Below are positions 1 through 16,372 of a DNA stretch of 16,372 bases, piece after piece. Position 1 is the stretch's first letter. Every line of letters begins with the position of its first letter. Source of the DNA: a candidate division Zixibacteria bacterium SM23_81 (GTDB taxonomy: Bacteria; SM23-81); contig LJUY01000060.1 in NCBI GenBank assembly GCA_001304015.1, positions 1 to 16,372 on the forward strand. The letters run 5' to 3'. The notes beneath the pieces were generated by a model. The model searched no databases. It was not told the DNA's origin and worked only from the letters and a program-made list of their open reading frames with translations. The translations under genes were made by a program, and so were the position numbers.

Positions 1-1034
1 GGCCCATAGCCGGCCTGTTCCGCTATAATCCACTCCCAGTTCAATGCCCATCTGGTCATATGTCTCGCCGATGGAGGTGCCTGCCGCCTTGGAGCGGTTA
101 TAGGCGGGCAGCAGGGCTACAGTGACAACAGGGGAGAAATACCGTGATAATCCCAGTTTGCCACTGGCCAGCCAATAATCATAGTAGACCTCGTCGGGAT
201 GGTCGTATGCCATCTGCTCCAGCTCACCCCTAAACACCAGACTCAATCCCGATCCCAACTGGTACTCTATATCGCTTTGGCCTGCCAGACTTAAATAGTC
301 CTGTCGTCCCTGCTGTCGAGCCGAGATTCTCCTCTCCAAGCGTGTGTCCAGGCGCAGATGCAAATTCCAGCCCATCAGGCCACTCAAAGTGGATACCAGA
401 GAGTGGTTCACATAATCCATCCCGCTGGAGTCGGGAACATCTCGAATGCATAGTCAAAAACTAGATCCCACATCCAATCCAACTCCGCCTCAAGACTTAC
501 CCTCGACTGGCTGAACCAATAGTCGCGGAAATATGAGGAGTTCTTCTCGTAGTTGACGTAGGACAGCCGCTGCTCGGTCCCCAAGCGGAGGCTGGACCCT
601 AAGGGCCACAATCCATCCACTCTGAATCGGTCCTCTGCGTAACTGCTGCCAAACAGGTCCTCTCCCTGCCACCAGTATTCCTTGAACTCCAGCTGATTCT
701 CCAGCCTGACCTGGGCATCTCGAAAGATGGCGGTGCTCCAGGTGCCGGTGAGGAGATTTTTCACAGACCGGTCGCTGAGGGCAACTTTATTCTGCACGCC
801 CAACCCTTTTTCCGCACCTCCCCCGTAACCGAAGACCATAGAAAAAGTCGTCTCGTCGAACTGGTCCAGTGTATCCTGATCACTGAGCCGGTACCGTTGT
901 CCCACCCAATCAAAAGCCATCCCCACATCCATATTGAAATCGCCGGGCAGCTCGATTCCCCAAACTTGATCTATCGAAAACCCTACGACGAGCACCCAAA
1001 GGGTTAGTTTGACCTTATGGATATATCTCCTCAA
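1..1034 (-). CDS. Outer-membrane beta-barrel protein, C-terminus off the window, with an apparent frameshift
   Basis: The reading frame starts at a TTG (1032-1034), ten bases after a GGAGGAG, and overlaps the end of the upstream lipoprotein gene by 20 bases. The first ~26 residues (basic start, LTLWVLVVGF, then QVWG) form a likely signal peptide. The rest alternates polar and hydrophobic residues, with many Trp/Tyr/Phe and short turns, as in outer-membrane barrels. This frame ends at a TGA at 408-410. The frame shifted by one base from about 441 down to 1 stays open for 147 codons and continues the same barrel-like pattern (DVPDSSGMDYVNHSL..., LHLRLDTRLERR, LSLVFRGELEQM). One missing base in the TTCGAGATG context around 440-446 would restore a single protein of at least ~345 residues, for example reading FE-DVPD. 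A sequencing or assembly error is more likely than a true mutation, but cannot be settled here. I do not recognise the family; it may be a channel or assembly scaffold working with the two upstream products. Confidence 0.7.
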
Positions 1035-1359
1035 CCTGTTGTTTCTCCTCCAGAAGCAGGATGCCTTGCTGAAGCACCTCTATGGCCGTTTCGTATTCCC
1101 CCATCAGGTAGAATTCCTCGGCCACATAGGCCAGCTCCCGGGCCTCTATCAGCTGGGGATCTTTGCCCCACTTCCCCTCAAGTTCCTCGAGCAGGCTGAG
1201 ATAACCTTCTTCCTGTCGATCATAAACCGACTGCCAGGACTCGACGGTGTATCGATGGGAATCCTGCGTGTCTCTCTTCGCGACGGAAGTCTTTGATGCG
1301 CAGCTCAGGCCGAGAAGAAGAAGCAGGGAAAGATGCAACATGAACAGACGCCGCATCAT
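1015..1359 (-). CDS. Small lipoprotein with TPR-like helical hairpin
   Basis: This 114-residue protein begins MMRRLFMLH followed by a Leu-rich stretch and GLSC, so Cys20 is the likely lipidation site. The -3 residue is Gly rather than Leu, which makes the lipobox imperfect. After a polar linker, residues ~67-105 form two amphipathic helices (ELAYVAEEFYLMGEYETAIEVL) with the A-x-x-x-G-x-Y-x-x-A pattern of a tetratricopeptide hairpin. Its start codon overlaps the stop of the upstream repeat-protein gene (ATGA at 1356-1359), and its 3' end overlaps the barrel gene, so all three are almost certainly co-transcribed and translationally coupled. By analogy with other TPR lipoproteins it probably tethers or helps assemble a partner at the inner face of the outer membrane. 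That role is inference from context. Confidence 0.75.
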   Translation of the reverse strand: MMRRLFMLHLSLLLLLGLSCASKTSVAKRDTQDSHRYTVESWQSVYDRQEEGYLSLLEELEGKWGKDPQLIEARELAYVAEEFYLMGEYETAIEVLQQGILLLEEKQQVEEIYP

Positions 1360-2405
1360 CCTGAGGTCTCTCCCACCAGCTCAAGGGCTTTGTCCACCAG
1401 ACGTCTGGCGATCTTAGTCTGAGCCAGAGCAAGTTTATACCGCTGAGTCGCCAGAAGACCTTTGGCCTTGTCCTGATGATTTTCGGCGGACAGGAAAAGT
1501 TGTACGGCCTCCCGATCCTGGCTCTCCATGATGATGGGGCGAACCCCTTCCATGAGTCCATCAGTGGCCCCGATGGTCCTTTTCACTCTCTCTGGATCAA
1601 TAGGTCCCTCCACCATACCTACCGCTCTGACCACAAATTCTCTGGCCTTTAGGGTGAGCTGATGGGCAACCTCGTATTTGCCCTCATCAAAAAATTCTCT
1701 CGCCCTGATCTGGGTCTGTACCCCCCTGTCAAGAAGTGCCCGAGCCTTCTCATGGCCGCTCTCTTCGATCAATGATCGGGCTTTATCAATAAGCCGATCG
1801 CTCCTGTCCAGCTCCCGACCCACCCGCTCTTGTCCCATATCCTCTTGCCGAAGCATGGTGATAATCTCTCGGGCCAGCTTATTGGCGTTCTTCAACAGGT
1901 GAAACGCCTGTTCGATCTGCCCCTCTCTCAAAGCCCCCTGGCCACGCTCAAATTGGCTCAAGGCCGTCTCCAGAAGGGCGGCTGCTCGTGGATTTTGGTT
2001 GACCCGCACCATCTTGGTGGCTATATCCAAGAGCTCGCTGGTGTTCTGAATCTGCCTGACGACAAACCGCCACCGCTCCGCGATCTTGATAGCTTCTTGA
2101 GCCAGCCCCCGGGCCGTCTTAGTGCCACTCAGGGCCAAGCGGTGCTGTCCCCGGTTATGAGCCATCCAGGCTTCCTTCTGGAGATTTTTAGCCTGATCCA
2201 GCAGTTCATGAGCCCTCTTACTGGGACAGCCCTCGTCGATGACCAGACGTTGGGCTTTAAGCAGCAACGCATCGGTCAATTCCAGCTCTCTCCGTGCCTC
2301 TACTCCACCCTGAGCGTTGGCCATTTGAATCCCTAGGCCTATCACCAGGACTGTAATGATAAATCCCAGTGAGAGTTTCATCTCAGTAAGTTTCTTGGTG
2401 CTCAT
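1356..2405 (-). CDS. Exported protein of four ~70-residue alpha-helical repeats
   Basis: I chose the ATG at 2403-2405 because an AGGAGG (2414-2419) lies eight bases before it; a longer reading from 2441 has no such site. The 349-residue product begins with a Sec signal peptide (hydrophobic residues 11-28, cleavage probably after AN-A-Q near 31-32). The remainder is almost entirely helical and consists of four units of about 70 residues at ~39-110, 117-186, 197-266 and 276-345. Each unit has the same order: L-x-x-A/V-x-x-L/M-x-x-x, then a short D/N/E-rich turn, A-x-x-L-L-x-x-A, a helix ending in G-Q/K-Y/H-x-x-A, then a basic A-R/K-x-L/F-x-x-x-A helix. The family is not one I can name; TPR-like or coiled-coil periplasmic scaffolds are the nearest analogues. 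It is the first gene after a sigma54 promoter and is coupled by a 4-base overlap to the lipoprotein gene. Confidence 0.8.
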   Translation of the reverse strand: MSTKKLTEMKLSLGFIITVLVIGLGIQMANAQGGVEARRELELTDALLLKAQRLVIDEGCPSKRAHELLDQAKNLQKEAWMAHNRGQHRLALSGTKTARGLAQEAIKIAERWRFVVRQIQNTSELLDIATKMVRVNQNPRAAALLETALSQFERGQGALREGQIEQAFHLLKNANKLAREIITMLRQEDMGQERVGRELDRSDRLIDKARSLIEESGHEKARALLDRGVQTQIRAREFFDEGKYEVAHQLTLKAREFVVRAVGMVEGPIDPERVKRTIGATDGLMEGVRPIIMESQDREAVQLFLSAENHQDKAKGLLATQRYKLALAQTKIARRLVDKALELVGETSG

Positions 2406-2465
2406 AGTAAAAACCTCCTCTTGAAAATGAAAAATGCGCACCGAAACCCCTCGTCATGCCAGTAT

Positions 2466-2481
2466 TGCAATCTCCGTGCCA
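2466..2481 (-). promoter_or_regulatory. Sigma54 (-24/-12) promoter of the envelope operon
   Basis: On the minus strand the bases read TGGCACGGAGATTGCA, matching every defined position of the sigma54 consensus TGGCACR-N4-TTGCW, including the GG and GC dinucleotides with correct spacing. Placing GC at -13/-12 predicts transcription from about 2455, giving a 50-base leader before the start at 2405. The gene immediately upstream encodes a sigma54-interacting activator, which supports the assignment. Confidence 0.9.
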
Positions 2482-2612
2482 GCTGCGAAGGTGAACAGAG
2501 CGTCTGAGTTGCTGTGCGCTTTACTTCTTTATTTACAATAACTTAAAAACTTACGCGGGAATCACCCTGGGACCTTCTTTGTCCCTTCCGATACACATCT
2601 GTGGACCTGGAG

Positions 2613-2636
2613 GTACAAAAACGTACTTGCGGGTAC
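2613..2636. promoter_or_regulatory. Candidate enhancer: three GTAC motifs at 10-bp spacing
   Basis: GTAC occurs at 2613-2616, 2623-2626 and 2633-2636. Each pair makes a 14-bp GTAC-N6-GTAC dyad, and all three face the same side of the helix. The array lies roughly 160-180 bp upstream of the predicted sigma54 start and just past the stop codon of the response-regulator gene. That is a typical distance for an NtrC-family activator site. Assignment to the adjacent regulator is inference. Confidence 0.5.
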
Positions 2637-2647
2637 ACGCTAGCCCT

Positions 2648-3988
2648 TCAATGACTGGGGGCTTCCCGGAGCCCCAACCTCTCCATCCTGGAATACAAAG
2701 CCCTCCTGGTGATCCCCAAAAGACGAGCTGCCTCAGTCTTGTTACCATCCGTTTGCCGCAGAGCCCTGAGAATTGACTCTCGCTCCAGCTGTTCCAAGTT
2801 AAGTTCACATCGAGCAGAGAGACTTGACGCCTCGGCAGGGGCCAAAAAGGGCAAATGAGCGAGCCCAATCCTATCACGCCCGGCCAAGATGACCGCCCTC
2901 TCGATGACATTCTCCAGTTCTCGGACATTACCAGGCCACATATAGGCCGTCAGCTGATTCAGTACTTTCTCGTCTATATCTCCAAGGCCTCTCCCACGTG
3001 CTTTGAGAAAGTGTTCCACCAGCACGGGGATGTCCTCTGGCCGCTCGCGCAGTGGAGGAACCGTGATGGGAAAAACGCTCAGCCGATAATAGAGATCCTC
3101 TCGAAAACTGCCTTCCCGAATGGCTCCTTCCAGGTTTCTGTTCGTGGCGGCGATGAGCCGGACATCTATGGATATGGTCTCCGTCCCGCCCACGCGGACA
3201 AGCTCTTTCTCCTGAAGCACGCGTAGCAATTTGGCCTGAAGGGAGGGGCTGATGTCTCCCACCTCGTCCAGGAAGAGAGTTCCCCCCTGGGCCAGCTCGA
3301 ACCGACCCAACTTCCTTTTGACGGCTCCTGTAAAAGCACCTTTCTCGTGGCCGAACAGTTCGCTTTCCAGGAGTGTCTCGGTCAAAGCGGCGCAGTTAAC
3401 TACCACCAGCGGCCCAGCAGAGCGGGGACTGCGGCGATGGATGGCCTCAGCCACCAGCTCCTTGCCTGTGCCACTCTCTCCCCGGATGAGAACGGTGACG
3501 TCGCTATGGGCCACCTTGTCGACCATGGACATCACCTGGTGCATCTTGGGATTGTTACCCATCACCATCTCATGTGCAACCCTGCGACTCAAATCTTCCC
3601 TGAGTTGCTGGTTTTCCATGACCAGGCGACGCTTCTCAGTGATTTTCTCCACCAACAGTGCCATTTCCTCGAGGTCGAAAGGTTTGACGATGTAATCATA
3701 AGCCCCTTGTTTCATCGCCGCAATGGCCGTCTGCACAGATGCATAGGCGGTCATCAATACCACCTCCGTCTCGGGGCTGGCCTTTTTGACGGCGCCCAGC
3801 AGCTCCAAACCGTCTACGGGAACCATCTTGAGGTCTGTGATCACGAGATCAAATTCTTGACGATCAATCAATTGTCGAGCCTTGTGGCTGTCTTCGATGG
3901 CGGTGACGTGATGACCTTTCTCCTCTAACATACCCTTCAGGATGACACACATCTTTCTCTCATCATCCACCACCAATATCTTGGCCAT
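2648..3988 (-). CDS. NtrC-family sigma54-dependent response regulator
   Basis: The 446-residue protein has the standard three domains. The receiver domain (1-~120) has the acidic pair D8/D9, phosphoacceptor D52 (ITDLKM), T80 and K102. The AAA+ sigma54-interaction domain (~142-375) has Walker A GESGTGKE at 170-177, the sigma54-contacting GAFTGA loop at 217-222, Walker B GTLFLDEV at 236-243, and the RPEDIPVL and WPGNVRELEN motifs. A Fis-type helix-turn-helix lies at ~412-440 (GNKTEAARLLGITRRALYSRM). All catalytic and sigma54-contact residues are intact, so it should activate transcription when phosphorylated by the kinase encoded 23 bases upstream. The start is an ATG preceded by GGGAG. The only strong sigma54 promoter seen in the window lies just downstream, making the three-gene envelope operon its most likely target. 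Confidence 0.95.
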   Translation of the reverse strand: MAKILVVDDERKMCVILKGMLEEKGHHVTAIEDSHKARQLIDRQEFDLVITDLKMVPVDGLELLGAVKKASPETEVVLMTAYASVQTAIAAMKQGAYDYIVKPFDLEEMALLVEKITEKRRLVMENQQLREDLSRRVAHEMVMGNNPKMHQVMSMVDKVAHSDVTVLIRGESGTGKELVAEAIHRRSPRSAGPLVVVNCAALTETLLESELFGHEKGAFTGAVKRKLGRFELAQGGTLFLDEVGDISPSLQAKLLRVLQEKELVRVGGTETISIDVRLIAATNRNLEGAIREGSFREDLYYRLSVFPITVPPLRERPEDIPVLVEHFLKARGRGLGDIDEKVLNQLTAYMWPGNVRELENVIERAVILAGRDRIGLAHLPFLAPAEASSLSARCELNLEQLERESILRALRQTDGNKTEAARLLGITRRALYSRMERLGLREAPSH

Positions 3989-4011
3989 AATATACTCTCC
4001 CTTGATTCCTA

Positions 4012-5319
4012 TTATATGGGCAAAAATAGGGTGACAGTGGTACCCTCGTTGGGCTGACTACGAACCTGAATCTTGCCATTATGGTCCTCGACGATTTTGG
4101 CCACGATAGCCAAACCCAGACCACTTCCCGTTTGTTTGGTCGTGTAAAAAGGCTCGAAAATCTTAGGCAGCTGCGATTCAGAGATGCCCTGTCCTGTGTC
4201 GCTTAGATCGAGGCGGACTTGTTTTTTCTGACGGCCCAAAGAAATGTCAAGCTCCCCCCCCTCTGGCATGGATTGAACAGCGTTCAGCAGCAAGTTGAGC
4301 AATGCCTGTTTGATTCGGGGGGCATCTAGACGGATGGGAGGCAGGTTTGGGGCTGAGGAAATATGGATTCGTACCCCTTTGTCGGTCAGTTCTCGCTGGG
4401 CCATGGCCACCGATTCCTTTACCAGATCCATCAGATTAACGGGGGACAGCTTAGGGGGTTCTATCCGGGCGAAATTTAAATATCGCGAGACGATCTCGTC
4501 CAAGCGATCCACCTCTTCTGGGAGAAATCCCAGCAGCTCCTCATCAGCCTCTGACATGGTAGGAGATGTGCGCAGGCGGTCTACGGCACCGCGGATGATA
4601 CTGAGGGGATTCCTGATCTCATGAGCCAAGTGGGCTGCCATGCGGCCCAGGTTAGCCAACGCGTCTGCGCGCAGAACAGCCATCTCAGCCCGAGCCACGG
4701 AATAGCTTAACTTGAGAAACAAAATCCCAACGGCAACTAGAAAGACGAGACTCACCCCTCCTATGATCAGCATGGTCCTCTTGAAGCTGTCCAAAACTCG
4801 AAAGTACCTGGCCGATGCCTCCACGCCCAGAATGGCCAGCACCTCACCTTCATCGTCCCTGGCGGGAGCATAAGCGCTTTTGAGAAAGAATCCGTCCACC
4901 GCGTAGAGACGGGAGGCGCTGGGCATACCGGAGGCGGCCAGAGTGACGGCCGCTTGATCTAGGTCAAAAGCTTGATCTCCTGCGCCGTACTTGGTGAGAC
5001 TACTTGTGCTGGCCAGGATCTTTCCCTCTAAATCGAAAATGGTGACGGTCTCCAAGCGGTTGTTCCCTTTAATTTGTTGCAGATAATCCTCTAACAGAAA
5101 CTGGGCGCCTGGTTCTTGAGCAGATTCTACCAGCTCGGGGCTCAACTCAAGAGTTGAGGTCACCGCGATGGCCTCAAGCCTCTGGCCTAACTGCTGATCC
5201 AGGTATCGGGATGCTTGCTCATAGAGCAGCCAGCCCGCCGCGTTGAAGAGCAACACGACGATGAGGAGAAAGAGGGCCAGCAGGATTAGTTGACGCCCCC
5301 GGAATCTAGTCATAACCAT
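4012..5319 (-). CDS. Membrane sensor histidine kinase, cognate to the downstream regulator
   Basis: I place the start at the ATG at 5317-5319, seven bases after GGTGAG (5327-5332). A GTG at 5331 would add four residues but has no ribosome site. The 435-residue protein has an N-terminal membrane helix (~11-33), a periplasmic segment of about 148 residues, and a second helix (~182-204). The cytoplasmic kinase core carries H-box HEIRNP (His233), N-box Asn346, DTGQGI (374-379), an F-box (IFEPFYTTK) and GSGLGL (398-403). The periplasmic part contains two strand patterns (TVTIFDLEGKILAS and GEVLAILGVEAS) that suggest a Cache/PDC-type sensor fold; no ligand can be inferred. There is no HAMP domain I can clearly see. 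It should phosphorylate D52 of the neighbouring regulator, with which it forms an operon. Confidence 0.93.
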   Translation of the reverse strand: MVMTRFRGRQLILLALFLLIVVLLFNAAGWLLYEQASRYLDQQLGQRLEAIAVTSTLELSPELVESAQEPGAQFLLEDYLQQIKGNNRLETVTIFDLEGKILASTSSLTKYGAGDQAFDLDQAAVTLAASGMPSASRLYAVDGFFLKSAYAPARDDEGEVLAILGVEASARYFRVLDSFKRTMLIIGGVSLVFLVAVGILFLKLSYSVARAEMAVLRADALANLGRMAAHLAHEIRNPLSIIRGAVDRLRTSPTMSEADEELLGFLPEEVDRLDEIVSRYLNFARIEPPKLSPVNLMDLVKESVAMAQRELTDKGVRIHISSAPNLPPIRLDAPRIKQALLNLLLNAVQSMPEGGELDISLGRQKKQVRLDLSDTGQGISESQLPKIFEPFYTTKQTGSGLGLAIVAKIVEDHNGKIQVRSQPNEGTTVTLFLPI

Positions 5320-5331
5320 ATGATCTCTCAC

Positions 5332-5798: not shown

Positions 5799-6713
5799 AT
5801 GCAAGCCCTTACACTGAAGAAAGTCCACAAGCGCTTTGCCCAAGTTACCGCTGTAGATTTTCTTTCCCTCCAGGTAGAGGAGGGCTGGATATATGGTTTG
5901 TTGGGGCCCAATGGCGCCGGCAAGACCACGACCATCCGAATGATTCTGAATATCATACAACCTGACCAGGGCCATATCTTTCTGTGGGGCGAAAAAGGAG
6001 CCGCTTTTACGGACCGGGTGGGATACTTGCCAGAGGAACGGGGCTTGTACCGTAAGATGAAGGTTTTGGACCTGCTGGTCTTTTTGGCCTCCATAAAGGG
6101 AATGAGGGCCAGCCAAACTCGGGCGGAAGCCCTTCGCTGGTTGGCGAAATTTGAGTTGGACGCATGGTGTCAGAGGAAGGTAGAGGAGCTGTCCAAAGGC
6201 ATGCAGCAGCAGGTCCAATTCATAGCCTGTGTGCTCCATCACCCGGACTTGGTTATCCTTGACGAGCCCTTCACAGGCCTTGATCCTGTCAACACAAGCC
6301 GACTCAAGGACGTCGTCCTGGAGCTCAACGCCCAGGGTACCACGGTCATCTTATCCACCCACCAGATGGAGCAGGTGGAGAGACTGTGCAGCCACATCTG
6401 CCTCATTAATCGGGGGCAAAAAGTCCTGGACGGCCGCCTTAGCGAGATTAAAAATGAATACGGTCAGAACACCGTCCGGCTGGAGTTTGACGGTCCCAAA
6501 ACCTTCCTGAATACAAGCCCTCTCATCGAGAAGATGGACCTCTATGGCCAATACGTGGAGCTGCGACTGAAGCCGGCCGCCGATCCTCAGGAGCTGCTCA
6601 GGACAGCCGTCCAAAGGACTTTTGTTCGAAAGTTCGAGATCGTCGAACCCAGCCTCAACGACATATTTATCGAAAAGGTGTCACTGGCGGATGGAGACGA
6701 ACGACCGGAGTAA
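5799..6713 (+). CDS. ABC transporter ATP-binding protein (NatA/YhaQ type)
   Basis: The 304-residue protein is a complete ABC ATPase. It has Walker A GPNGAGKT (36-43), a Q-loop region reading YLPEERGLY (77-84) with Glu where many families have Gln, signature LSKGMQQQ (131-138), Walker B LVILDEP (151-157), D-loop GLD (160-162) and switch His188. The PEERGLY segment and the ~80-residue C-terminal extension ending in LNDIFIEKV are typical of the NatA/YhaQ/CcmA-like group, which works with ABC-2 exporters. The start is the ATG after GGAG (5789-5792). Its expected permease partner lies two genes downstream at 8415-9677, with an FAD enzyme between them. The pair probably forms a homodimeric or heterodimeric inner-membrane exporter; the substrate (sodium, drug, lipid or peptide) cannot be told from sequence. 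Confidence 0.92.
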   Translation: MQALTLKKVHKRFAQVTAVDFLSLQVEEGWIYGLLGPNGAGKTTTIRMILNIIQPDQGHIFLWGEKGAAFTDRVGYLPEERGLYRKMKVLDLLVFLASIKGMRASQTRAEALRWLAKFELDAWCQRKVEELSKGMQQQVQFIACVLHHPDLVILDEPFTGLDPVNTSRLKDVVLELNAQGTTVILSTHQMEQVERLCSHICLINRGQKVLDGRLSEIKNEYGQNTVRLEFDGPKTFLNTSPLIEKMDLYGQYVELRLKPAADPQELLRTAVQRTFVRKFEIVEPSLNDIFIEKVSLADGDERPE

Positions 6714-6780
6714 TCGTCAGATCTCTCCATCCCATATCCTCTGTCACCATCGCCCAAGAAGCAATATATAAACTCACAAG

Positions 6781-8385
6781 ATGGTGGAGAAGTTGAACGT
6801 CATTCGCCCCATTCGTATCGAGACGGACGCCATCTGTCCCCGAATCGATGACTCCAAAGTGATCCAGGAGAGCTATGCGGAATACATGTCTGACGAAAGC
6901 CGGCTGGAGCACTCCTACGCCACCGCCCTTTATTTTCCCACCTCAACCGAGGAGGTGGTGGCTGCCGTGAAGGATGTCGCCGCCAGAGGAGAAAAACTGG
7001 TCGTCTCCGGGGCTCGCACGGGTATCGTGGGGGGAGCCGCGATGACCGAGCCTCACAATCTCGTATGCCTGGAGAAACTCCGGACGAAACTATCTCTGCG
7101 ATTCTATGAACAGGACGGTAACTGGCACGCAAAGATGGCGGCAGGAATCACGTTGGCAGATCTGGGCACGGCTCTGGAGGAGGGAAACTTTGAACACGCC
7201 GGCGAAGGCCCAGAAAAAACACTTTTTTATCCTGTAGATCCCACCGAAAAGACGGCCCTAATTGGAGGCAATGTGGCCACCAATGCCTCCGGAGCTAGAA
7301 CCCTCTTCTACGGCTCTACCAGAGATTGGGTGGAGTGGTTGCGGGTCGTCCTGGCCGACGGGCGTGTCCTCGAACTGCGGCGGGGGCAAGTTCGGGCCCT
7401 GGGATTTGAATTTCTCTTCGACGACGAGATGGGAGAGCTCCGCCCTCTTAAGTTGCCGGACATCACCATGCCTCGGACAAAGGCCACGGTGGGATACTTT
7501 TCCTCTCCTGATATGGACGCGGTCGATCTATTCGTGGGCTCGGAGGGAACCCTGGGCATCATCACCGAACTGGAACTGCGGCTCATCGAGCGACCGTCAA
7601 CCCTGATCGTATGCCAGCATTTTGACTCAGAAAACCGTGCCATCGACTTCGTGCTGGCCCTGAGCGCCAGCAAGGACCCCTCACCCATGGCCATGGAATA
7701 CTTCGATCCTCATGCCATTAACCTCCTTCGGCAGAAGAGGGCCGCAGATGGAAACTCCAGTTGTGTGCCCGAGCTGCCCGAAAGAATACAGGCGCTGGTC
7801 AGCGTAGAGTGGGCTATGAAGGAGGAAACGGAGATCGAGAAAATTGTCGACAGCCTAGAAAGAGTTCTCTCCCGGATAGGTGCGCGACCTGAGGAAAGCT
7901 GGGCGGGGTGTACGGTGAAGGAAGTGGAGAGGATGAGGGAGATCCGGCATGCGCTTCCGGAGACCATCAACGACATCATCGCGCAGCGCAAAACACGCGC
8001 GCCGGAGATTCACAAATTCGGCACGGACATCGCCGTGCCTCTGGAGCGCCTTAAGGAGATGGTGACCATCTACCGCCGCCATCTCGATGCTCGGGGTTTG
8101 GAATACGTGATCCACGGCCATATCGGTAACGGCCATTTACATGTCAATGTGCTGCCAAGGGACACACAGGAGTTTTCCGAGGCGAAAAAACTCTACCAGG
8201 GTTTTGCTCATGAAGCTGTTCGTATCGGGGGAAGTATCTCCGCTGAGCACGGAATAGGAAAAACAAAACGCGATTTTCTCTTCATACAGTACCCCCATGA
8301 AGCAGTGGAGCAGATGAGAAAGATCAAACAGGTATTCGATCCCGATGGCAGACTGAACCCAGGTGTGCTTTTTCATGAAGGGTGA
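6781..8385 (+). CDS. GlcD-family FAD-binding oxidase/dehydrogenase
   Basis: The 534-residue product belongs to the VAO/PCMH flavoprotein family that includes D-lactate dehydrogenase and the glycolate oxidase subunit GlcD. The FAD-binding half shows SGARTGIVGGA (77-87), GGNVATNASGART (162-174) and GSEGTLGI (253-260). The C-terminal substrate domain shows HGHIGNGHLHVN (445-456), E489-H490 in EHGIGK, and the closing FDPDGRLNPG. Family members oxidise 2-hydroxy acids using FAD and often a bound divalent metal held by the His/Glu motifs. In many relatives the motif reads GDGN-H; here it is GNGHLH, a modest departure. No iron-sulfur or CCG domain is fused. The exact substrate is unknown. No strong ribosome site precedes the ATG. 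The gene lies between the two halves of an ABC exporter; its stop is 29 bases before the permease start, suggesting co-transcription. Confidence 0.9.
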   Translation: MVEKLNVIRPIRIETDAICPRIDDSKVIQESYAEYMSDESRLEHSYATALYFPTSTEEVVAAVKDVAARGEKLVVSGARTGIVGGAAMTEPHNLVCLEKLRTKLSLRFYEQDGNWHAKMAAGITLADLGTALEEGNFEHAGEGPEKTLFYPVDPTEKTALIGGNVATNASGARTLFYGSTRDWVEWLRVVLADGRVLELRRGQVRALGFEFLFDDEMGELRPLKLPDITMPRTKATVGYFSSPDMDAVDLFVGSEGTLGIITELELRLIERPSTLIVCQHFDSENRAIDFVLALSASKDPSPMAMEYFDPHAINLLRQKRAADGNSSCVPELPERIQALVSVEWAMKEETEIEKIVDSLERVLSRIGARPEESWAGCTVKEVERMREIRHALPETINDIIAQRKTRAPEIHKFGTDIAVPLERLKEMVTIYRRHLDARGLEYVIHGHIGNGHLHVNVLPRDTQEFSEAKKLYQGFAHEAVRIGGSISAEHGIGKTKRDFLFIQYPHEAVEQMRKIKQVFDPDGRLNPGVLFHEG

Positions 8386-8414
8386 ATTTTGATTGTAACA
8401 AGTTAGGTCAGGTC

Positions 8415-9677
8415 ATGAGCAAAACGACCACGGTGATCAAAAGAGAGTATCTGGAGCGTCTTAAGAAGAAGAGTTTTCTCCTCGGCACGCTCCTGGGCCC
8501 CCTCCTGATGGCTGGGCTGATTATCGTGCCTGGGCTTCTGGTGACCGTTTCCACAGGGAAGCAATGGCGAATATCAGTGGTGGACCAGACTGGACAGATC
8601 TATCCCCAGCTACAAACGGCCCTCAGCGACACCCTTAAAGATGGTCAGCCCAGATACGTGTTGGAGGTGGTCGCCATCACCGCTGGACAGATGGATGCCA
8701 CGCGTCGAGCCCTCAGCCAACAAGTAGCCAGGGACCGAATCTCGGCTTATTTGATCGTTGGTCCTGGGGCTTTAAGCACAGGAGAGGCGGATTTCTACGC
8801 CAAAAACGTGGGCGATTTCACCGCCATCGATCGAATTGAAAGCGCCCTAACTCAAATCGTGGTGGAGAATCGGCTGAACCAAGAGGGGCTGGATCCTGAG
8901 CGTATCAAAAAACTTACCCAGGGTGTTCGCCTGAGGACCATGAAGGTTGGCAAAAGGGGCGAGCGAGAGAGTGGCTTTGGCCAGGTTTATCTGGAAACCA
9001 TGGTGTTTGTGATGATCTTGTATATGACCATCCTTCTGTATGGCGTGGCGGTGATGAGAGGGGTCATCGAGGACAAGTCCACCAGAGTAGTGGAGGTGCT
9101 TCTCTCCTCTATGCGCTCCACTCAGCTCATGGCCGGGAAAATCCTGGGCCTAGGAGGCGTCGGTGTGACTCAGTATTTGATCTGGATCGCTTTCGGTCTT
9201 GGCCTATCCACCTTTGGAGCCGCTTATCTTGGCCTGGGACAGATCATAAGAGCCATTTCTCCAAGTACTTTTTTCTACTTCCTTCTTTTCTATCTCCTGG
9301 GATATTTCCTTTATGCTACATTGTATGCCGGAGTGGGGGCCATCTGTTCCACAGAGCAGGATGCCCAACAGGTCCAGTTTCCCATCATTTTCCTACTCAT
9401 GTTGCCCCTCATGCTTTCGGCCCCAATCATCAAAAATCCGGACAGTGGTTTGGCCATAGTTCTCTCCCTGATTCCCTTTTTCTCTCCTATGCTGATGTTT
9501 CTGCGCATGAATCTGGTCACGCCTCCTCTGGGCCAGATTCTGGCATCCATATTCTTATTGTCGCTGAGTATCTTCCTGATGATCTGGTTGGTAGCCAAGA
9601 TTTTTCGGGTGGGCTTGCTGATATACGGGAAAAGAGCCACCCTTCCGGAAATCGTTCGGTGGATAAAGGCGAGCTGA
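8415..9677 (+). CDS. ABC-2 type permease (NatB/YhaP type)
   Basis: I chose the ATG at 8415, preceded by TTAGG, giving MSKTTTVIKREYLERLKKKSF, the typical N-terminus of this permease group; a GTG at 8382 overlapping the previous stop is an alternative. The 420-residue protein has one membrane helix at ~22-44, a large extracytoplasmic loop of about 150 residues, then five or six membrane helices from ~195 to the end, with the motif EDKSTRVVEVLLSSM after the second helix that is characteristic of YhaP/NatB exporters. It is the natural partner of the ATPase at 5799-6713, although the FAD oxidase gene separates them. The exporter probably moves a small molecule or ion outward; no substrate is evident. 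Confidence 0.9.
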   Translation: MSKTTTVIKREYLERLKKKSFLLGTLLGPLLMAGLIIVPGLLVTVSTGKQWRISVVDQTGQIYPQLQTALSDTLKDGQPRYVLEVVAITAGQMDATRRALSQQVARDRISAYLIVGPGALSTGEADFYAKNVGDFTAIDRIESALTQIVVENRLNQEGLDPERIKKLTQGVRLRTMKVGKRGERESGFGQVYLETMVFVMILYMTILLYGVAVMRGVIEDKSTRVVEVLLSSMRSTQLMAGKILGLGGVGVTQYLIWIAFGLGLSTFGAAYLGLGQIIRAISPSTFFYFLLFYLLGYFLYATLYAGVGAICSTEQDAQQVQFPIIFLLMLPLMLSAPIIKNPDSGLAIVLSLIPFFSPMLMFLRMNLVTPPLGQILASIFLLSLSIFLMIWLVAKIFRVGLLIYGKRATLPEIVRWIKAS

Positions 9678-10155: not shown

Positions 10156-10488
10156 GTGTCTATCCTGCGATGGCCCCTGCCAATCTCAAACAATGAGCCT
10201 CTTCTTAAAAAATTGCTTCTGGCCTTGATCCTGCTGAACATCGGCGACATGGTCTTCACCCTTTGGGGCGTGAGAACAGGCATCTTCGTGGAGGTCAATC
10301 CCCTTATGCGCTGGTGCCTGAACCAGGGAATGTCCTTTTTCGTGCTGGTCAAAACAGGCCTCTGTTTCCAGTTCGTTCTGGGATCAATTCTCATGGCCAA
10401 AAAGGTCCGTTATTTCGCTCTCTTAACTTCCTTTATAGTATTAATTTACTCGGTCGTAGTGATTCGATCCGTCGGTCTGCTTATCTAA
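10156..10488 (+). CDS. Small integral membrane protein, DUF5658-like
   Basis: The GTG start follows GGAGG (10142-10146) by nine bases. The 110-residue protein has three or four hydrophobic helices. It carries the conserved pattern NIGDMVFTLWGV...EVNPLM...FVLVKTG that I associate with the uncharacterised DUF5658 membrane family: an Asp in the first helix, a Glu-x-Asn-Pro before the second and a Lys in the third. Charged residues inside predicted helices at fixed spacing suggest a functional site rather than a simple anchor. The function of the family is unknown. It stands alone, with no clear link to the lexA cluster downstream. Confidence 0.75.
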   Translation: MSILRWPLPISNNEPLLKKLLLALILLNIGDMVFTLWGVRTGIFVEVNPLMRWCLNQGMSFFVLVKTGLCFQFVLGSILMAKKVRYFALLTSFIVLIYSVVVIRSVGLLI

Positions 10489-11097: not shown

Positions 11098-11706
11098 ATG
11101 AGACCGAGACTGACCGCCAGACAGAGGCAGATTCTCGATTTCATCTTAGAACAGATCGACTCCCGGGGGTTCCCCCCAACCATGCGGGAGATCGGAGCAC
11201 AATTTGGCATCTCCTCTCCCAACGGGGTCCGAGATCACCTGGTCGCCCTGCAGCGAAAGGAGTACCTGAAGAGAATCCCCGAGAAATCCCGCTCCCTGGA
11301 GGTGGCGGAGGATCTCAGGAGAGATCAGGGAAAGCCCATTCTGGGCAATATCGCCGCCGGCAAGCCCATCTTGGCGGAGGAGAATTTCCAGGGACTTCTC
11401 AACCTCAACACCCTCTTCGGACGCGATGCCGCCATCTTCGCCCTGCGCGTGGAGGGAGACAGCATGATCCAGGCGGGCATCTTCCATGGCGATTTCGTCA
11501 TCGTCAAACACCAGCCAGAGATTGCCCATGGAGAGATCGGCGTGGTCTACATCGAGGACGAGGCCACGGTGAAGAAAATTTTCGTGGAGGGGGATCAACT
11601 CCTTCTGCAGCCCGAAAACGACGCCATGAGTCCCGTGGTCATCGCCCGGGATGACGACCGACTCCGGGTTGGAGGGAAGGTGATTGGTGTGGTGAGGAAG
11701 ATGTGA
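11098..11706 (+). CDS. lexA: LexA SOS repressor / autoprotease
   Basis: The 202-residue protein has an N-terminal winged helix-turn-helix (LTARQRQILDFI, TMREIGAQFGISSPNGVRDHL). The recognition helix begins SPN, as in E. coli LexA. The self-cleavage site is Ala87-Gly88 (NIAAGKP), the nucleophile is Ser122 (VEGDSM) and the general base Lys159 (ATVKK), all at the expected spacing. It should repress SOS genes until RecA filaments trigger autocleavage. The ATG follows GGAGG (11086-11090) by seven bases. The first gene of a lexA-dinB-dnaE cluster, it is presumably autoregulated through the operator at 10673-10692. Confidence 0.97.
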   Translation: MRPRLTARQRQILDFILEQIDSRGFPPTMREIGAQFGISSPNGVRDHLVALQRKEYLKRIPEKSRSLEVAEDLRRDQGKPILGNIAAGKPILAEENFQGLLNLNTLFGRDAAIFALRVEGDSMIQAGIFHGDFVIVKHQPEIAHGEIGVVYIEDEATVKKIFVEGDQLLLQPENDAMSPVVIARDDDRLRVGGKVIGVVRKM

Positions 11707-11727
11707 CCTGCCGTGTTCGTTGGAAAG

Positions 11728-11867
11728 AGGATCCAAGGATTCCCCTTCCCCCCATCTCTACTACCCCAGGATTCCAGGGTTCAAGGGGAGAATCGAAAAT
11801 CAAACCTCTTATGCCATAGGGGGCGGGGTGGCACTTGAATCCTAGAATCCTTGAATCCTTGAATCCT
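11728..11867. repeat. 140-bp non-coding repeat, copy A
   Basis: This copy matches 13109-13248 over all 140 bases without gaps, with six differences, all transitions. Its ends are complementary: 15 bases at each end (AGGATCCAAGGATTC and GAATCCTTGAATCCT) pair with one mismatch. The right end is made of four tandem 8-mers TNGAATCC (11835-11866), with three more degenerate units at 11876-11899. No open frame is conserved. Confidence 0.85.
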
Positions 11868-11921
11868 CTTACTTATTGAATCCTCGAATCCCTGAACCCT
11901 TTAGACTCTCGAGAAACAATA

Positions 11922-13076
11922 ATGAATCGCCATATCCTCCACTTAGACCTCGACGCCTTCTTCGTCTCTGTAGAACGGGTCTTCAACCCACAGCTGCGCG
12001 GCAAGCCGGTTATTGTGGGAGGCGATCCCCGGGGGCGTGGTGTGGTGGCCTCCGCCTCCTACGAGGCCAGAACATATGGGATCCGCTCGGCCATGCCCCT
12101 GGCCCAGGCCAAGAAACTCTGTTCCCACGCCGTCTTTATTATCGCTCGCCATGCCCGCTACCAGGAATTCTCCGAGAAAGTCCTGAACATGCTCAGGAGA
12201 TATGCCCCCGTGGTCGAGGCGGCCTCGGTGGACGAGTTCTACCTGGATATGACCGGATGTGATCACCTGTACGGCAGCATCTTCGCCGTGGCCACCCAGA
12301 TCAAAGCAGACCTCAGGAAAAAGCTGGGTTTGCCGGCATCCATTGGCCTGGGTTCCAACAAGCTCATCGCCAAGATCGCTGCCGCCCTGAGCAAGCCCGA
12401 GGGCCTCCTATGGGTCTTCCCCGGCGAAGAGGCCTCCATCCTAGCACCCCTCCCCGTGGCCTATCTTCCGGGCATCGGCCTTCATACCCAGAGCAGACTC
12501 CAAGAGCTGGGCATCCGCACCATCGGAGAACTGGCCCAGTTTCCCCAACCTCTTTTGCTGACCGCCTTCGGCAAACACGGCCAACAGATGAACAACCGGG
12601 CTCGCGGCCTCTGCTCTCGCCCGGTCACAGAACACAGAGAGCCGAAAAGCCTGAGCCGGGAGGTGACCTTCAACACGGACACCATCGATCCGAGGACCCT
12701 GGAGATGGTTCTCTGCCGTCTGGCCGAGGGGGTGGGGTATGGGATACGACGGCTGGGGATGGCGGCTGGCACAGTGACCATCAAACTGCGCTACTCCGAC
12801 TTTCAGACCATCTCCCGTTCCCAAAGCGTCCCTCCCACTGATGACGACGTGGAGATCTTCCAGACGGCCCAGGCCCTGTTCAAAAAGGCCTTTTCCCGGC
12901 GAGTGCGCATCCGTCTTCTGGGCGTCAAGTTATCCAACTTGCTTGCCAAGAATCCCCAGGGCGCCCTTTTCGTTCCCCCGGAGGAAATCAAAAAGGAGCA
13001 ACTCCACCAAAGCACGGACAGCATTCGAGAGAGATTCGGGATGGAAGCCCTTCATCTGGGGAGGGCATTAGGGTAG
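11922..13076 (+). CDS. dinB: Y-family DNA polymerase IV
   Basis: The 384-residue protein is a full-length DinB. Metal-binding catalytic residues Asp9 (HLDLDAFF), Asp104 and Glu105 (SVDEFYLD) are all present, so unlike ImuB it should polymerise. Phe14 sits at the steric-gate position. The palm-fingers (VVASASYEAR), thumb (YLPGIGLHTQSRL, helix-hairpin-helix) and little-finger domains follow in order. QGALF at 346-350 fits a beta-clamp-binding motif of the QL(S/D)LF type. It performs translesion synthesis, inserting opposite damaged bases with low fidelity. The ribosome site is weak. It lies 215 bases after lexA, across repeat copy A, and has no SOS box of its own that I can find, so it is probably read from the lexA promoter. 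Confidence 0.95.
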   Translation: MNRHILHLDLDAFFVSVERVFNPQLRGKPVIVGGDPRGRGVVASASYEARTYGIRSAMPLAQAKKLCSHAVFIIARHARYQEFSEKVLNMLRRYAPVVEAASVDEFYLDMTGCDHLYGSIFAVATQIKADLRKKLGLPASIGLGSNKLIAKIAAALSKPEGLLWVFPGEEASILAPLPVAYLPGIGLHTQSRLQELGIRTIGELAQFPQPLLLTAFGKHGQQMNNRARGLCSRPVTEHREPKSLSREVTFNTDTIDPRTLEMVLCRLAEGVGYGIRRLGMAAGTVTIKLRYSDFQTISRSQSVPPTDDDVEIFQTAQALFKKAFSRRVRIRLLGVKLSNLLAKNPQGALFVPPEEIKKEQLHQSTDSIRERFGMEALHLGRALG

Positions 13077-13108
13077 AAAAGAATAGGATTCGAGGATTTG
13101 TTAAAGAC

Positions 13109-13248
13109 AGGATTCAAGGATTCCCCTTCCCCCCATCCTTACTACCCCAGGATTCCAGGGTTCAAGGGGAGAACCGAAAATCAAACCTCTTGTGCCATAG
13201 GGGGCGGGGTGGCACTTGAATCCTAGAATCCTTGGATCCTTGAATCCT
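13109..13248. repeat. 140-bp non-coding repeat, copy B
   Basis: This is the second copy of the element at 11728-11867, in the same orientation. The two copies flank dinB precisely within its intergenic borders. Terminal 15-mers are inverted repeats with one mismatch (AGGATTCAAGGATTC against GGATCCTTGAATCCT). Nearby degenerate units (GGATTCGAGGATTT at 13086-13099, CGGATTCTTGATTC at 13257-13270) show that the octamer motif extends beyond the conserved block. Confidence 0.85.
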
Positions 13249-13361
13249 TGCTTTTTCGGATTCTTGATTCTCTCATTGTGGCACTCTTACACCCTACACC
13301 CGGGGAGCAGTCGGGCGGGGCAGGGTACCCTATTCATTTCCAACTTCAGCCAAATTCCAAC

Positions 13362-16300
13362 ATGTTCACCCATCTCCACGTCCACAGCAATTTCACCTTT
13401 CTGTCCGGGGCAAACACCATCGAAGATCTGTTGCAACGCGCCCAAGAACTGGGCATGAAGGCTCTGGCCCTGACGGACAGAAACGGCCTGTACGGAGCCA
13501 TCCCTTTCTACAAGGCGGCTAAAGAACTGGGTATACAGCCCATACTGGGGACCGAGCTGAACGACCCGCAGGACTCGGAGATGCGGGCCGTGCTGCTGGC
13601 CGAAAGTCGAGAGGGGCTCTCCCACATCTGTCGCCTGATCACCCGGAGGAAGCTCCAGCAGGAATTTCATCTCATGGAGGCATTAGAGGAGGCTTCTCAG
13701 GGCGTGATCGTCCTCACTGCCAACCCAGCCCTGTTGGCGCGACTCTCCTCCACTTTCAAACCCGGTGTCCTGTACGGTGAGTTGATCCCCGCCGTGGACA
13801 AAAAGAGTCGCAAACGAGCCAGCCAGGTCATCGGCCTGGCCAAAAGGAGGGGCATCCCCCTGGTGGCCACCAACGACGTGCACTTTCTCCTTCCTGCCGA
13901 TCACCTCCGACACCGCCTCCTGCGGGCCATCGACGCCAACGGGACCCTGTTCTCCCTCAACGGGGAGGACCAGGCTTCTCCCCAGAGCTACCTGGCCTCT
14001 TTTGCCCAGATGAGCCGCGCTTGGGCGGAGATCCCAGAGGCCATCGAAAACACAGAGGCCATCAGGGAACGCTGCCACCTGGACCTGAAGCTGGGCACTT
14101 ACAGGTTCCCGAACTTCCCTCTGCCTCCGGGCGAAACCCCCTTCTCCTACCTCTGGAAGGTCTCCTTCGAGGGACTGAAGAGACGCTATCAGCCCCTGAC
14201 CGAGAGGGCCATCGAACGGTTGAAATACGAGTTGGAGATCATCGAAAACTTGGGATTCAGCACCTACTTCCTGGTGGTCTGGGACATCGCGCAGCGGGCC
14301 AAGGCGCTGCGAATCCCGACCATTGGACGAGGTTCGGCAGCCAACTCCATCGTCTCCTACTGCCTGGAGATCACCCACGTGGATCCCTTGGCCCACAACC
14401 TGTATTTCGAGCGCTTCCTCAACCCTCAGAGGCGATCCCCTCCAGACATCGATCTGGACTTCTGCTGGAAACGCAGAGACCAGATCCTCCAGTATGTCTA
14501 CAAGGCCTACGGCGAAGATCACGTAGCCATGATCTCCACCACCGTCACCCTGAAGGCCCGAGCCGCCATGCGAGAGGTGGCCAAGGTTCTGGGGCTGGAG
14601 GCCGAGGAGATCCGGAGAATCACCTCTCGGATACCCCACTGGGGCGTGCACGATCTGCGAACCGTCCGGGATGAATTCCCCGAGTGCCGAAATCTGCCCC
14701 TGGATCGGGAGCCCTACCGCACGGTGGTGGCCGTCGCCCAGAAGATCATGGGTTTCCCCCGCCACCTCTCGGTCCATCCCGGGGGCATGGTGATCTCCCC
14801 GGTGCCCCTCACCGACGACCTCCCCCTGGAGATGGCCCCCAAGGGTCTGGTCATCACCCAGTACGACATGTTCGCCGTGGAGGACCTTGGTCTGGTGAAG
14901 ATCGACCTGCTGGGGCAGCGCTCCCTAGGGGTGCTTCAGGATACAGTGGAGGCCGTGGAGAGACACCAGCGCCGTGGGCCGGAAGTGGAGAGCCTGCCCA
15001 TGATCTTCAGAGACGAATCCACCCGGCGGCTCATTCGAGAAGGCCAGACCATGGGCTGTTTCTACATCGAGTCGCCAGCCATGAGGGCTCTGTTGAAGAA
15101 GCTGGGCACGGATACCTTTGAGGGGCTCACCGCCGCCAGCTCCGTGATCCGCCCGGGGGTGGCCGAGAGCGGCATGATGGATCAGTACATCCAGCGACAC
15201 CACGACCCCACCAAAGCCCACTATCTCCATCCCAAGCTGAGGGAGCTGCTGGGAGAAACATATGGGGTCATGGTTTACCAGGAGGACGTCATCAAGGTGG
15301 CCCATCACTTGGCCGGAATGAGCCTGGGAGAGGCCGATCTGTTGCGCCGAGCCATGAGCGGCAAGCTCAGATCGGAGGAGGCCATGACCCGGCTCCGGGA
15401 TAGCTTCGTGGTTGCCTGCCGACGTCAGGGGGTGCGGAAAGAGGTGGCCCAAGAGGTCTGGCGACAGATCAAGAGTTTCGCCGGCTACGCCTTCTGCAAA
15501 GCTCACAGCGCCTCCTACGCCATTCTCTCTTTTCAGGTGGCCTACCTGAAGGCTCACTACCCAGCCGAGTTCATGGCCGCCGTGTTGTCCAACGGAGGTG
15601 GATTTTACGGAGCCGGGGCTTACATCCAGGAGGCGCGACGTCTGGGGCTCAAAATCCTATTGCCCGACATCAACAAAAGCGCCTATGAATACACCGGCTC
15701 CGATGGAGCCGTTCGCATCGGACTCATGCAGGTCAAAGGTCTCTCCCTGGCCTCTGTGGAGTCCATCCTCAAGGCTCGTGAGGAGGGCTATTTCACCTCG
15801 CTCTCGGACCTGAGGGGGCGAACCCAGGTGGGTCTCAAGGAGCTGCACACCCTGATTCGATGTGGAGCGCTGGACTGCTTCGAACTCAGCAGACCGGAGC
15901 TCCTCTGGCGACTGGAGGTCCTGGGCAAAGGTCCGGGAACATCTCGAAAGGCGAAGAACTCTCATGAGGTCCGCCGAGATCTGACCCACATCGTGCCCCG
16001 CATCCCGGAATACTCGCTCCACCAGAGATGTCTCATCGAGCTGGAGACCTTCGGCTTCATGGCCACCCGGCACCCCCTCCAGCTGCTGGTGTCCCAGCCC
16101 GACCCGGAGGGGGTGATCACCGCGGCCCAGATGGGGGAACACGTCGGCCATGAAGTCAGGATGATCGGGTGGCTCATCTCAGCCAAGAGAATCACCAGCA
16201 GGAAAAGCGGTCAGCCCATGAAGTTCATGTCCATGGAGGATCTCAGCGGGACCTTTGAGGTGACCCTCTTCCCCAGCGTCTATCGCCAATATGCCCCCCT

Positions 16301-16372
16301 GAGCCTGGGCTATGGACCGTATCTGGTGACGGGGAGGGTGGAGGACAGCTACGGCGCCTTCAGCCTGACGGC
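13362..16372 (+). CDS. dnaE: DnaE-type C-family DNA polymerase (SOS-cassette type), 3' end off the window
   Basis: An uninterrupted frame of 1003 codons runs off the window end. It starts with a PHP domain (HLHVHSNFTFLSG at 4-16, TNDVHF at 170-175). The polymerase core follows, with PDIDLDF at 361-367 (Asp364 and Asp366) and Asp515 (VKIDLLGQ) as the catalytic triad, RGSAANS (323-329) and the conserved KAHSASYA. A helix-hairpin-helix region and an OB-fold segment (from VRMIGWLISA) come last. Several PHP metal ligands are replaced: Asp by Ser in LSG, His by Arg in LTDRNG, so this domain may be inactive. Its place after lexA and dinB suggests the DnaE2/ImuC translesion polymerase rather than the main replicase. 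No ribosome site precedes the ATG; an in-frame GTG at 13278 also exists, but the PHP motif starts right at the ATG. Confidence 0.92.
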   Translation, partial: MFTHLHVHSNFTFLSGANTIEDLLQRAQELGMKALALTDRNGLYGAIPFYKAAKELGIQPILGTELNDPQDSEMRAVLLAESREGLSHICRLITRRKLQQEFHLMEALEEASQGVIVLTANPALLARLSSTFKPGVLYGELIPAVDKKSRKRASQVIGLAKRRGIPLVATNDVHFLLPADHLRHRLLRAIDANGTLFSLNGEDQASPQSYLASFAQMSRAWAEIPEAIENTEAIRERCHLDLKLGTYRFPNFPLPPGETPFSYLWKVSFEGLKRRYQPLTERAIERLKYELEIIENLGFSTYFLVVWDIAQRAKALRIPTIGRGSAANSIVSYCLEITHVDPLAHNLYFERFLNPQRRSPPDIDLDFCWKRRDQILQYVYKAYGEDHVAMISTTVTLKARAAMREVAKVLGLEAEEIRRITSRIPHWGVHDLRTVRDEFPECRNLPLDREPYRTVVAVAQKIMGFPRHLSVHPGGMVISPVPLTDDLPLEMAPKGLVITQYDMFAVEDLGLVKIDLLGQRSLGVLQDTVEAVERHQRRGPEVESLPMIFRDESTRRLIREGQTMGCFYIESPAMRALLKKLGTDTFEGLTAASSVIRPGVAESGMMDQYIQRHHDPTKAHYLHPKLRELLGETYGVMVYQEDVIKVAHHLAGMSLGEADLLRRAMSGKLRSEEAMTRLRDSFVVACRRQGVRKEVAQEVWRQIKSFAGYAFCKAHSASYAILSFQVAYLKAHYPAEFMAAVLSNGGGFYGAGAYIQEARRLGLKILLPDINKSAYEYTGSDGAVRIGLMQVKGLSLASVESILKAREEGYFTSLSDLRGRTQVGLKELHTLIRCGALDCFELSRPELLWRLEVLGKGPGTSRKAKNSHEVRRDLTHIVPRIPEYSLHQRCLIELETFGFMATRHPLQLLVSQPDPEGVITAAQMGEHVGHEVRMIGWLISAKRITSRKSGQPMKFMSMEDLSGTFEVTLFPSVYRQYAPLSLGYGPYLVTGRVEDSYGAFSLT

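Follow-up and report, generated by a model that had tools for sequence, protein, structure and literature searches.

In the Zra system, an exported helical protein is encoded beside a kinase/regulator pair. EzrA is a spectrin-like bacterial protein and was, as of 2014, the sole bacterial protein known with that fold (PMC4243239), while proteins of the Slam/NilB type join a TPR domain to a barrel, their known cargo having a common C-terminal eight-stranded barrel (PMC8406197). Here we describe a locus that resembles each of these systems in part, located at one end of a 16,372 bp stretch of DNA (the window) which is the entire contig C92 (LJUY01000060.1) of the candidate division Zixibacteria bacterium SM23_81 (genome G000, incomplete, 3.07 Mb in 99 contigs). 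On its minus strand the locus carries, in this order, the genes of a sensor histidine kinase (HK), an NtrC-type response regulator (RR), an exported repeat protein (REP), a small helical protein, likewise exported, and a predicted outer-membrane beta-barrel (BAR), the last three genes overlapping by a few bases like those of a translationally coupled operon. As judged by sequence comparison, this sensor/switch pair and its envelope genes are a real, conserved system, because these genes, along with their DNA control signature, are shared by at least three bacterial phyla.

The association of the genes is shown by comparison of 386 genomes (G labels denote genomes and L labels loci). In G001, which belongs to the same family, REP was found on a contig-end fragment with HK-RR upstream. 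All five genomes of a second phylum carried REP, with the order HK-RR-REP-small protein-BAR in G148, G149 and G072 and HK-RR-REP-BAR in G151. Outside both phyla, HK-RR-REP-BAR was present in G181 and G280, HK-RR-REP in G166, and REP-BAR in G009, G060, G061, G203 and G289. G332 had a BAR homologue immediately 3' of REP, and in G080, G223 and G327 REP was followed by SIX, a lipoprotein gene described below, and then by a BAR whose N-terminus is extended by a helical segment. A profile search with a five-row REP alignment returned three records, the contigs of G148, G151 and G149 (REP contigs BQJX01000031 of Gemmatimonadota bacterium DHS20C21, JAGQIB010000344 and JALGZR010000045). REP and BAR each occurred in 21 of the 386 genomes and together in 19 (hypergeometric probability ∼6e-28), a figure to be read with the facts that the surveyed genomes are not independent samples and that REP-proximal sequences served to build the profiles for BAR and SIX. 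BAR was also found away from REP in G006, G161 and G298.

When the envelope genes were tested for occurring apart from one another or from the regulator, REP and BAR shared 19 of the 21 genomes in which each was found, and in other phyla HK-RR-REP-BAR was collinear; loci without neighbouring HK and RR kept the promoter signature, with an RR orthologue elsewhere in the genome. In several genomes in which no RR adjoins REP, the RR orthologue stood clear of the other NtrC-type regulators (625 versus 530 bits in G009, 634 versus 540 in G327 and 612 versus 509 in G289), the gap being small in G223. This orthologue was adjoined by a kinase in G009, G161, G289 and G061, and a perfect palindrome of the kind described next was located just upstream of HK-RR in G009 and G061.

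The initial annotation had described a consensus sigma54 promoter with an array of motifs upstream, and both were recovered, their scores being judged against 300 shuffles. The promoter TGGCACGGAGATTGCA (2466–2481, minus strand), upstream of REP, is identical to the −24/−12 consensus at 11 of 11 positions and none of the shuffles matched its score. Three palindromes of the form TGTMCC-N4-GGKACA, all on the minus strand, occupy the RR-REP gap, and their best score was likewise equalled by no shuffle. Palindrome 1, TGTACCCGCAAGTACG (2622–2637), lies 156 bp upstream of the −24 element and is conserved in G001 (L006); palindrome 2, TGTACCTCCAGGTCCA (2602–2617), starts 20 bp from palindrome 1, and palindrome 3, TGTATCGGAAGGGACA (2580–2595), 22 bp from palindrome 2. 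A sigma54 promoter was found at the equivalent place in L006, L026–L029, L005 and L030, and comparison showed the palindrome together with the sigma54 promoter to be common to most loci, across phyla, upstream of REP. This includes G009, G060, G080, G223 and G327, in which REP is located apart from HK-RR and still has the palindromes and the sigma54 site upstream. Over the whole of G000, sigma54-like sites were enriched, with 40 against 8 in the reversed control. When G000 was scanned with a looser palindrome and one mismatch was allowed, hits did not exceed those of the reversed control, and only the combination of palindrome and sigma54 site was informative. Exact palindromes lacking a sigma54 site were seen at several places in 15 genomes scanned and were treated as chance occurrences.

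This combined signature predicted a further member of the system, and by comparison the prediction held. Among 30 sigma54 sites scanned in G000, a single one, at G000:C47:15803, had a strong upstream palindrome (0 expected from shuffles), namely two palindromes 22 bp apart ahead of SIX, which encodes a 308-aa lipoprotein. SIX is ∼35% identical to the protein encoded immediately 3' of BAR in G009, and its homologues adjoin REP or BAR in G009, G061, G080, G223 and G327. In these five genomes SIX lies inside the operon and has no palindrome and sigma54 promoter of its own; in G000, G001, G148, G199 and G245 it lies outside and carries its own. SIX was present in 45 of the 386 genomes, 12 of them with REP (hypergeometric probability ∼2e-7). 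The initial annotation had called the module self-contained and without match to any named system; what stands is a single, unnamed, signal-controlled envelope module, which is not self-contained because at least one further target, SIX, lies elsewhere in the genome.

Other lipoprotein genes carried the signature in some genomes. In G009, two palindromes and a perfect sigma54 site precede the gene of a DUF4382 lipoprotein (L190:2556-3684). A family of lipoproteins characterised by G-x-F/W-x-G-x-W repeats and a GGY..FG motif, referred to as FGDP (L115:9536-10576, L116:2372-3508, L124:12216-13397), without a Pfam match and present in 12 of the 386 genomes, had the palindrome and the sigma54 site in G151 and G181 and a weaker version in G280, while its homologues in scanned genomes lacking REP were devoid of the signature. 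As FGDP was not found in G000, it was not counted as part of the system. A coiled-coil lipoprotein gene of G061 (L193:671-1136) has a perfect palindrome close upstream and only a weak sigma54-like site.

The genes of kinase, NtrC-type activator, repeat protein and barrel were present where initially placed. A Pfam scan of the locus proteins gave confident identifications for HK and RR alone. No known family matched REP, the small protein, BAR or SIX above cut-off; REP, the small protein and BAR had zero above-cut-off Pfam families, SIX had no Pfam match, and NCBIfam gave none for REP or for relatives of BAR and SIX. A search of the open-licence literature found no account of the module or the palindrome, although one may exist elsewhere. 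HK (4012–5331, minus strand) has two transmembrane helices (residues 15–33 and 188–206) flanking a periplasmic domain with a weak Pfam match to sCache_3_2, followed by HisKA and HATPase domains. It is 73% identical to its L006 orthologue and 35–39% identical to those of L026–L029 over nearly the full length including the sensor region, and for every HK compared, the near-full-length alignment to the window HK took in the sensor domain. RR (2648–3988, minus strand) consists of a receiver (Pfam E 3e-27), a sigma54 AAA+ domain (E 1.5e-73) and a Fis-type helix-turn-helix (E 7e-14), and retains the GAFTGA motif and the phospho-acceptor D52, which places it among the NtrC-type regulators. It scored below the curated NCBIfam cut-offs for ZraR (435 versus 760 bits), AtoC (483 versus 714) and PrsR (424 versus 502.6), and HK fell far below that for ZraS.

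REP (1356–2405, minus strand) has a signal peptide and about four three-helix repeats with a period of ∼79 residues; in self-comparison, shifts of 79 and 158 were best, and a single shuffle of 300 could come close. The AlphaFold2 model (mean pLDDT 89.7, pTM 0.50) is all-helical, with helices of ∼22 residues alternating with long fused helices, and predicts a spectrin/EzrA-like rod in which the helix arrangement is that of spectrin-type repeats. EzrA was among the best PDB matches of the model (4uxv, 339 residues; 4uy3, 162 residues at 3.2 Å). The VIA-align Z-scores of 11.0 (4uxv) and 9.6 (4uy3) are no higher than is usual among helical repeats, which can reach ∼13 by their common arrangement, and the resemblance of the modelled REP to EzrA is therefore regarded as structural analogy and not as homology. 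Spectrin itself was absent from the structural matches, and neither Pfam nor a profile comparison with the PDB gave a sequence match to EzrA or spectrin.

BAR (1–1034, minus strand) is cut by the contig end and changes frame near 408–450, so that it consists of two overlapping frames, 1–420 and 408–1034, which jointly correspond to the one frame that encodes BAR in relatives. In G001 (L243), BAR is one open frame containing KKEVPDSSGLDY, whereas in the window VPDSSGMDY occurs only in the other frame; from this comparison, the break would reflect an error of assembly or else a real lesion. BAR has its 3' end on contig C29 (L242:8648-8959), which shares a 60-mer with the start of the window. In the better part of a low-confidence model of the BAR from L129 (pLDDT 44.5), strands are 9–15 residues long; outer-membrane barrels, OmpG-like ones among them, were the top PDB matches of the model. 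After BAR, a conserved exported protein, DUF4159-like by appearance, is encoded in G000 (L242:7754-8455) and G001 (L243:1159-1944).

The gene of the small protein (1015–1359, minus strand) overlaps the REP stop and the BAR start, and its orthologues sit between REP and BAR in G072, G148 and G149. Its helices are TPR-like, matching below Pfam cut-offs only. The initial label of lipoprotein is doubtful and was dropped, because the lipobox is non-standard and the lipobox cysteine is missing in the orthologues of L027 and L028. That the small protein equals the N-terminal domain of the fused BAR was considered and rejected, as profile comparison was negative.

Other genes were noted in the remainder of the window. 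At 5799–9677, a gene of an FAD-linked oxidase is placed between those of an ABC-2 exporter ATPase and its permease, which in G001 (L006) are adjacent and without the oxidase gene. A small DUF5658 protein (E 1.8e-17) is encoded at 10156–10488, and at 11098–16372, consecutive genes of LexA-like, DinB/Pol IV-like and DnaE-like type resemble, from reading of the open reading frames, an SOS mutagenesis cassette.

Taken together, HK, RR, REP, BAR and SIX very probably constitute one regulon. Given its domains and its pairing with RR, HK would sense a periplasmic cue via its extracytoplasmic domain and phosphorylate RR. Comparison strongly supports the next two steps, in which RR would bind the tandem palindromes, two helical turns apart and ∼90–165 bp upstream, and so activate sigma54-RNA polymerase. 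In this way RR would switch on the REP-small protein-BAR operon and the separately located SIX, as well as other lipoprotein genes in some genomes and HK-RR itself in some lineages. The products, which probably act together, would be the BAR outer-membrane barrel, REP as a soluble periplasmic spectrin-like rod, its small helical partner and outer-membrane lipoproteins, with REP serving either as a rod or as a holdase-like scaffold and BAR providing the membrane anchor. They would most likely form an on-demand complex of outer membrane and periplasm that maintains or reinforces the envelope under stress. As a whole, a sigma54-dependent two-component regulon with such a complex as its product is the best explanation, and one that we hold to be about evenly balanced between right and wrong; the envelope maintenance or stress role taken singly is more tentative. 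A physical trans-envelope assembly, and likewise any specific role in export, adhesion or repair, is something we infer.

Several observations weigh against this explanation. The sigma54 site upstream of REP is weak or absent in G280, G332 and G289, and both palindrome and sigma54 site are absent there in G205 and G166. SIX occurs in 33 genomes that lack REP. The BAR frame is broken in this assembly, the BAR model has too low a confidence (44.5) for strands to be counted, and the structural match of REP to EzrA does not leave the range usual for helical repeats. A bolder version, namely an inducible, cross-phylum periplasmic skeleton in which the spectrin-like rod is coupled to a dedicated barrel and to surface or outer-membrane lipoproteins, REP being the first exported bacterial spectrin-like family, is put forward as doubtful.

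A Slam/DUF560-like export system, in which BAR and its TPR-like partner would move the SIX, FGDP and DUF4382 lipoproteins across the outer membrane with REP as a periplasmic holdase, is unlikely. Two of 12 BARs matched Pfam SlipAM (PF04575) weakly (best E 0.0021; one score of 16.1 bits against a cut-off of 22), the N-terminal helical extension of BAR in G080, G223 and G327 resembles a fused small protein, and the extra regulon members are mostly lipoproteins. However, window-type BARs had no SlipAM match in Pfam, a comparison of profiles between the small protein and the BAR extension was negative, and the C-terminal eight-stranded barrel of Slam cargo was not recognised in SIX.

Similarly improbable is an envelope stress response of the Zra/Cpx type, which would have REP as a free periplasmic chaperone analogous to ZraP or Spy, and BAR and the lipoproteins in quality control or repair, with no fixed complex. 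AtoSC and ZraSR are among the nearest named relatives of HK and RR, and REP is soluble, exported, helical and encoded beside the kinase/regulator pair; yet REP had no match to the ZraP, Spy or CpxP families in Pfam or NCBIfam, RR and HK lie far under the ZraR and ZraS cut-offs, and the tight cross-phylum pairing of REP with BAR speaks for a joint rather than a generic role. More unlikely still is nutrient uptake, with a Cache-type kinase sensing a small molecule (compare DctBD) and inducing an outer-membrane porin and a periplasmic binding apparatus. Control by sigma54 and NtrC is frequent among transport genes, the HK periplasmic domain has its weak sCache_3_2 match, and BAR could be a porin in view of its OmpG-like structural matches, but in no relative does the conserved part of the locus include genes for a transporter, a binding protein or catabolism, and the REP model is unlike a solute-binding protein. 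Finally, kinase/NtrC pairs are common and each genome has several NtrC-type regulators, but an ordinary orphan pair beside unrelated envelope genes by chance is most improbable, being refuted at the level of association by the order, co-occurrence and promoter signature kept across phyla.

With the regulon as the preferred reading, a previously unannotated envelope gene cluster becomes a defined regulon, marked by a DNA signature that can be tested and present in uncultured lineages of at least three phyla, and four unannotated protein families (REP, the small protein, BAR and SIX) are tied to one signal. Once found, the signal and the assembly would extend the short list of known systems for envelope maintenance or export.

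Compared with described systems, the window pair shares with ZraSR-ZraP and AtoSC a membrane kinase and an NtrC-type regulator working with sigma54, but REP is not ZraP-like and an outer-membrane barrel and lipoproteins are added. With PrsK-PrsR of the PEP-CTERM/exosortase system it has in common the resemblance of RR to PrsR (424 bits) and sigma54 control over surface or envelope genes, although RR remains under the PrsR cut-off of 502.6 and HK matches PrsK in the catalytic part only. Slam/DUF560 proteins likewise combine an outer-membrane barrel with a TPR-like periplasmic part and lipoprotein partners, whereas SlipAM was matched weakly in divergent BARs only and not in the window-type BAR. 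In EzrA (4uxv, 4uy3), three-helix repeats follow one another linearly and share long helices, a pattern that the predicted helices of the REP model would fit; the EzrA repeats, however, are of ∼100 aa and the EzrA repeat domain is cytoplasmic, in contrast to the exported, ∼79-aa repeats of REP, which show no sequence match to EzrA. Should the EzrA/spectrin-like reading be true, REP would be an exported counterpart of the EzrA fold.

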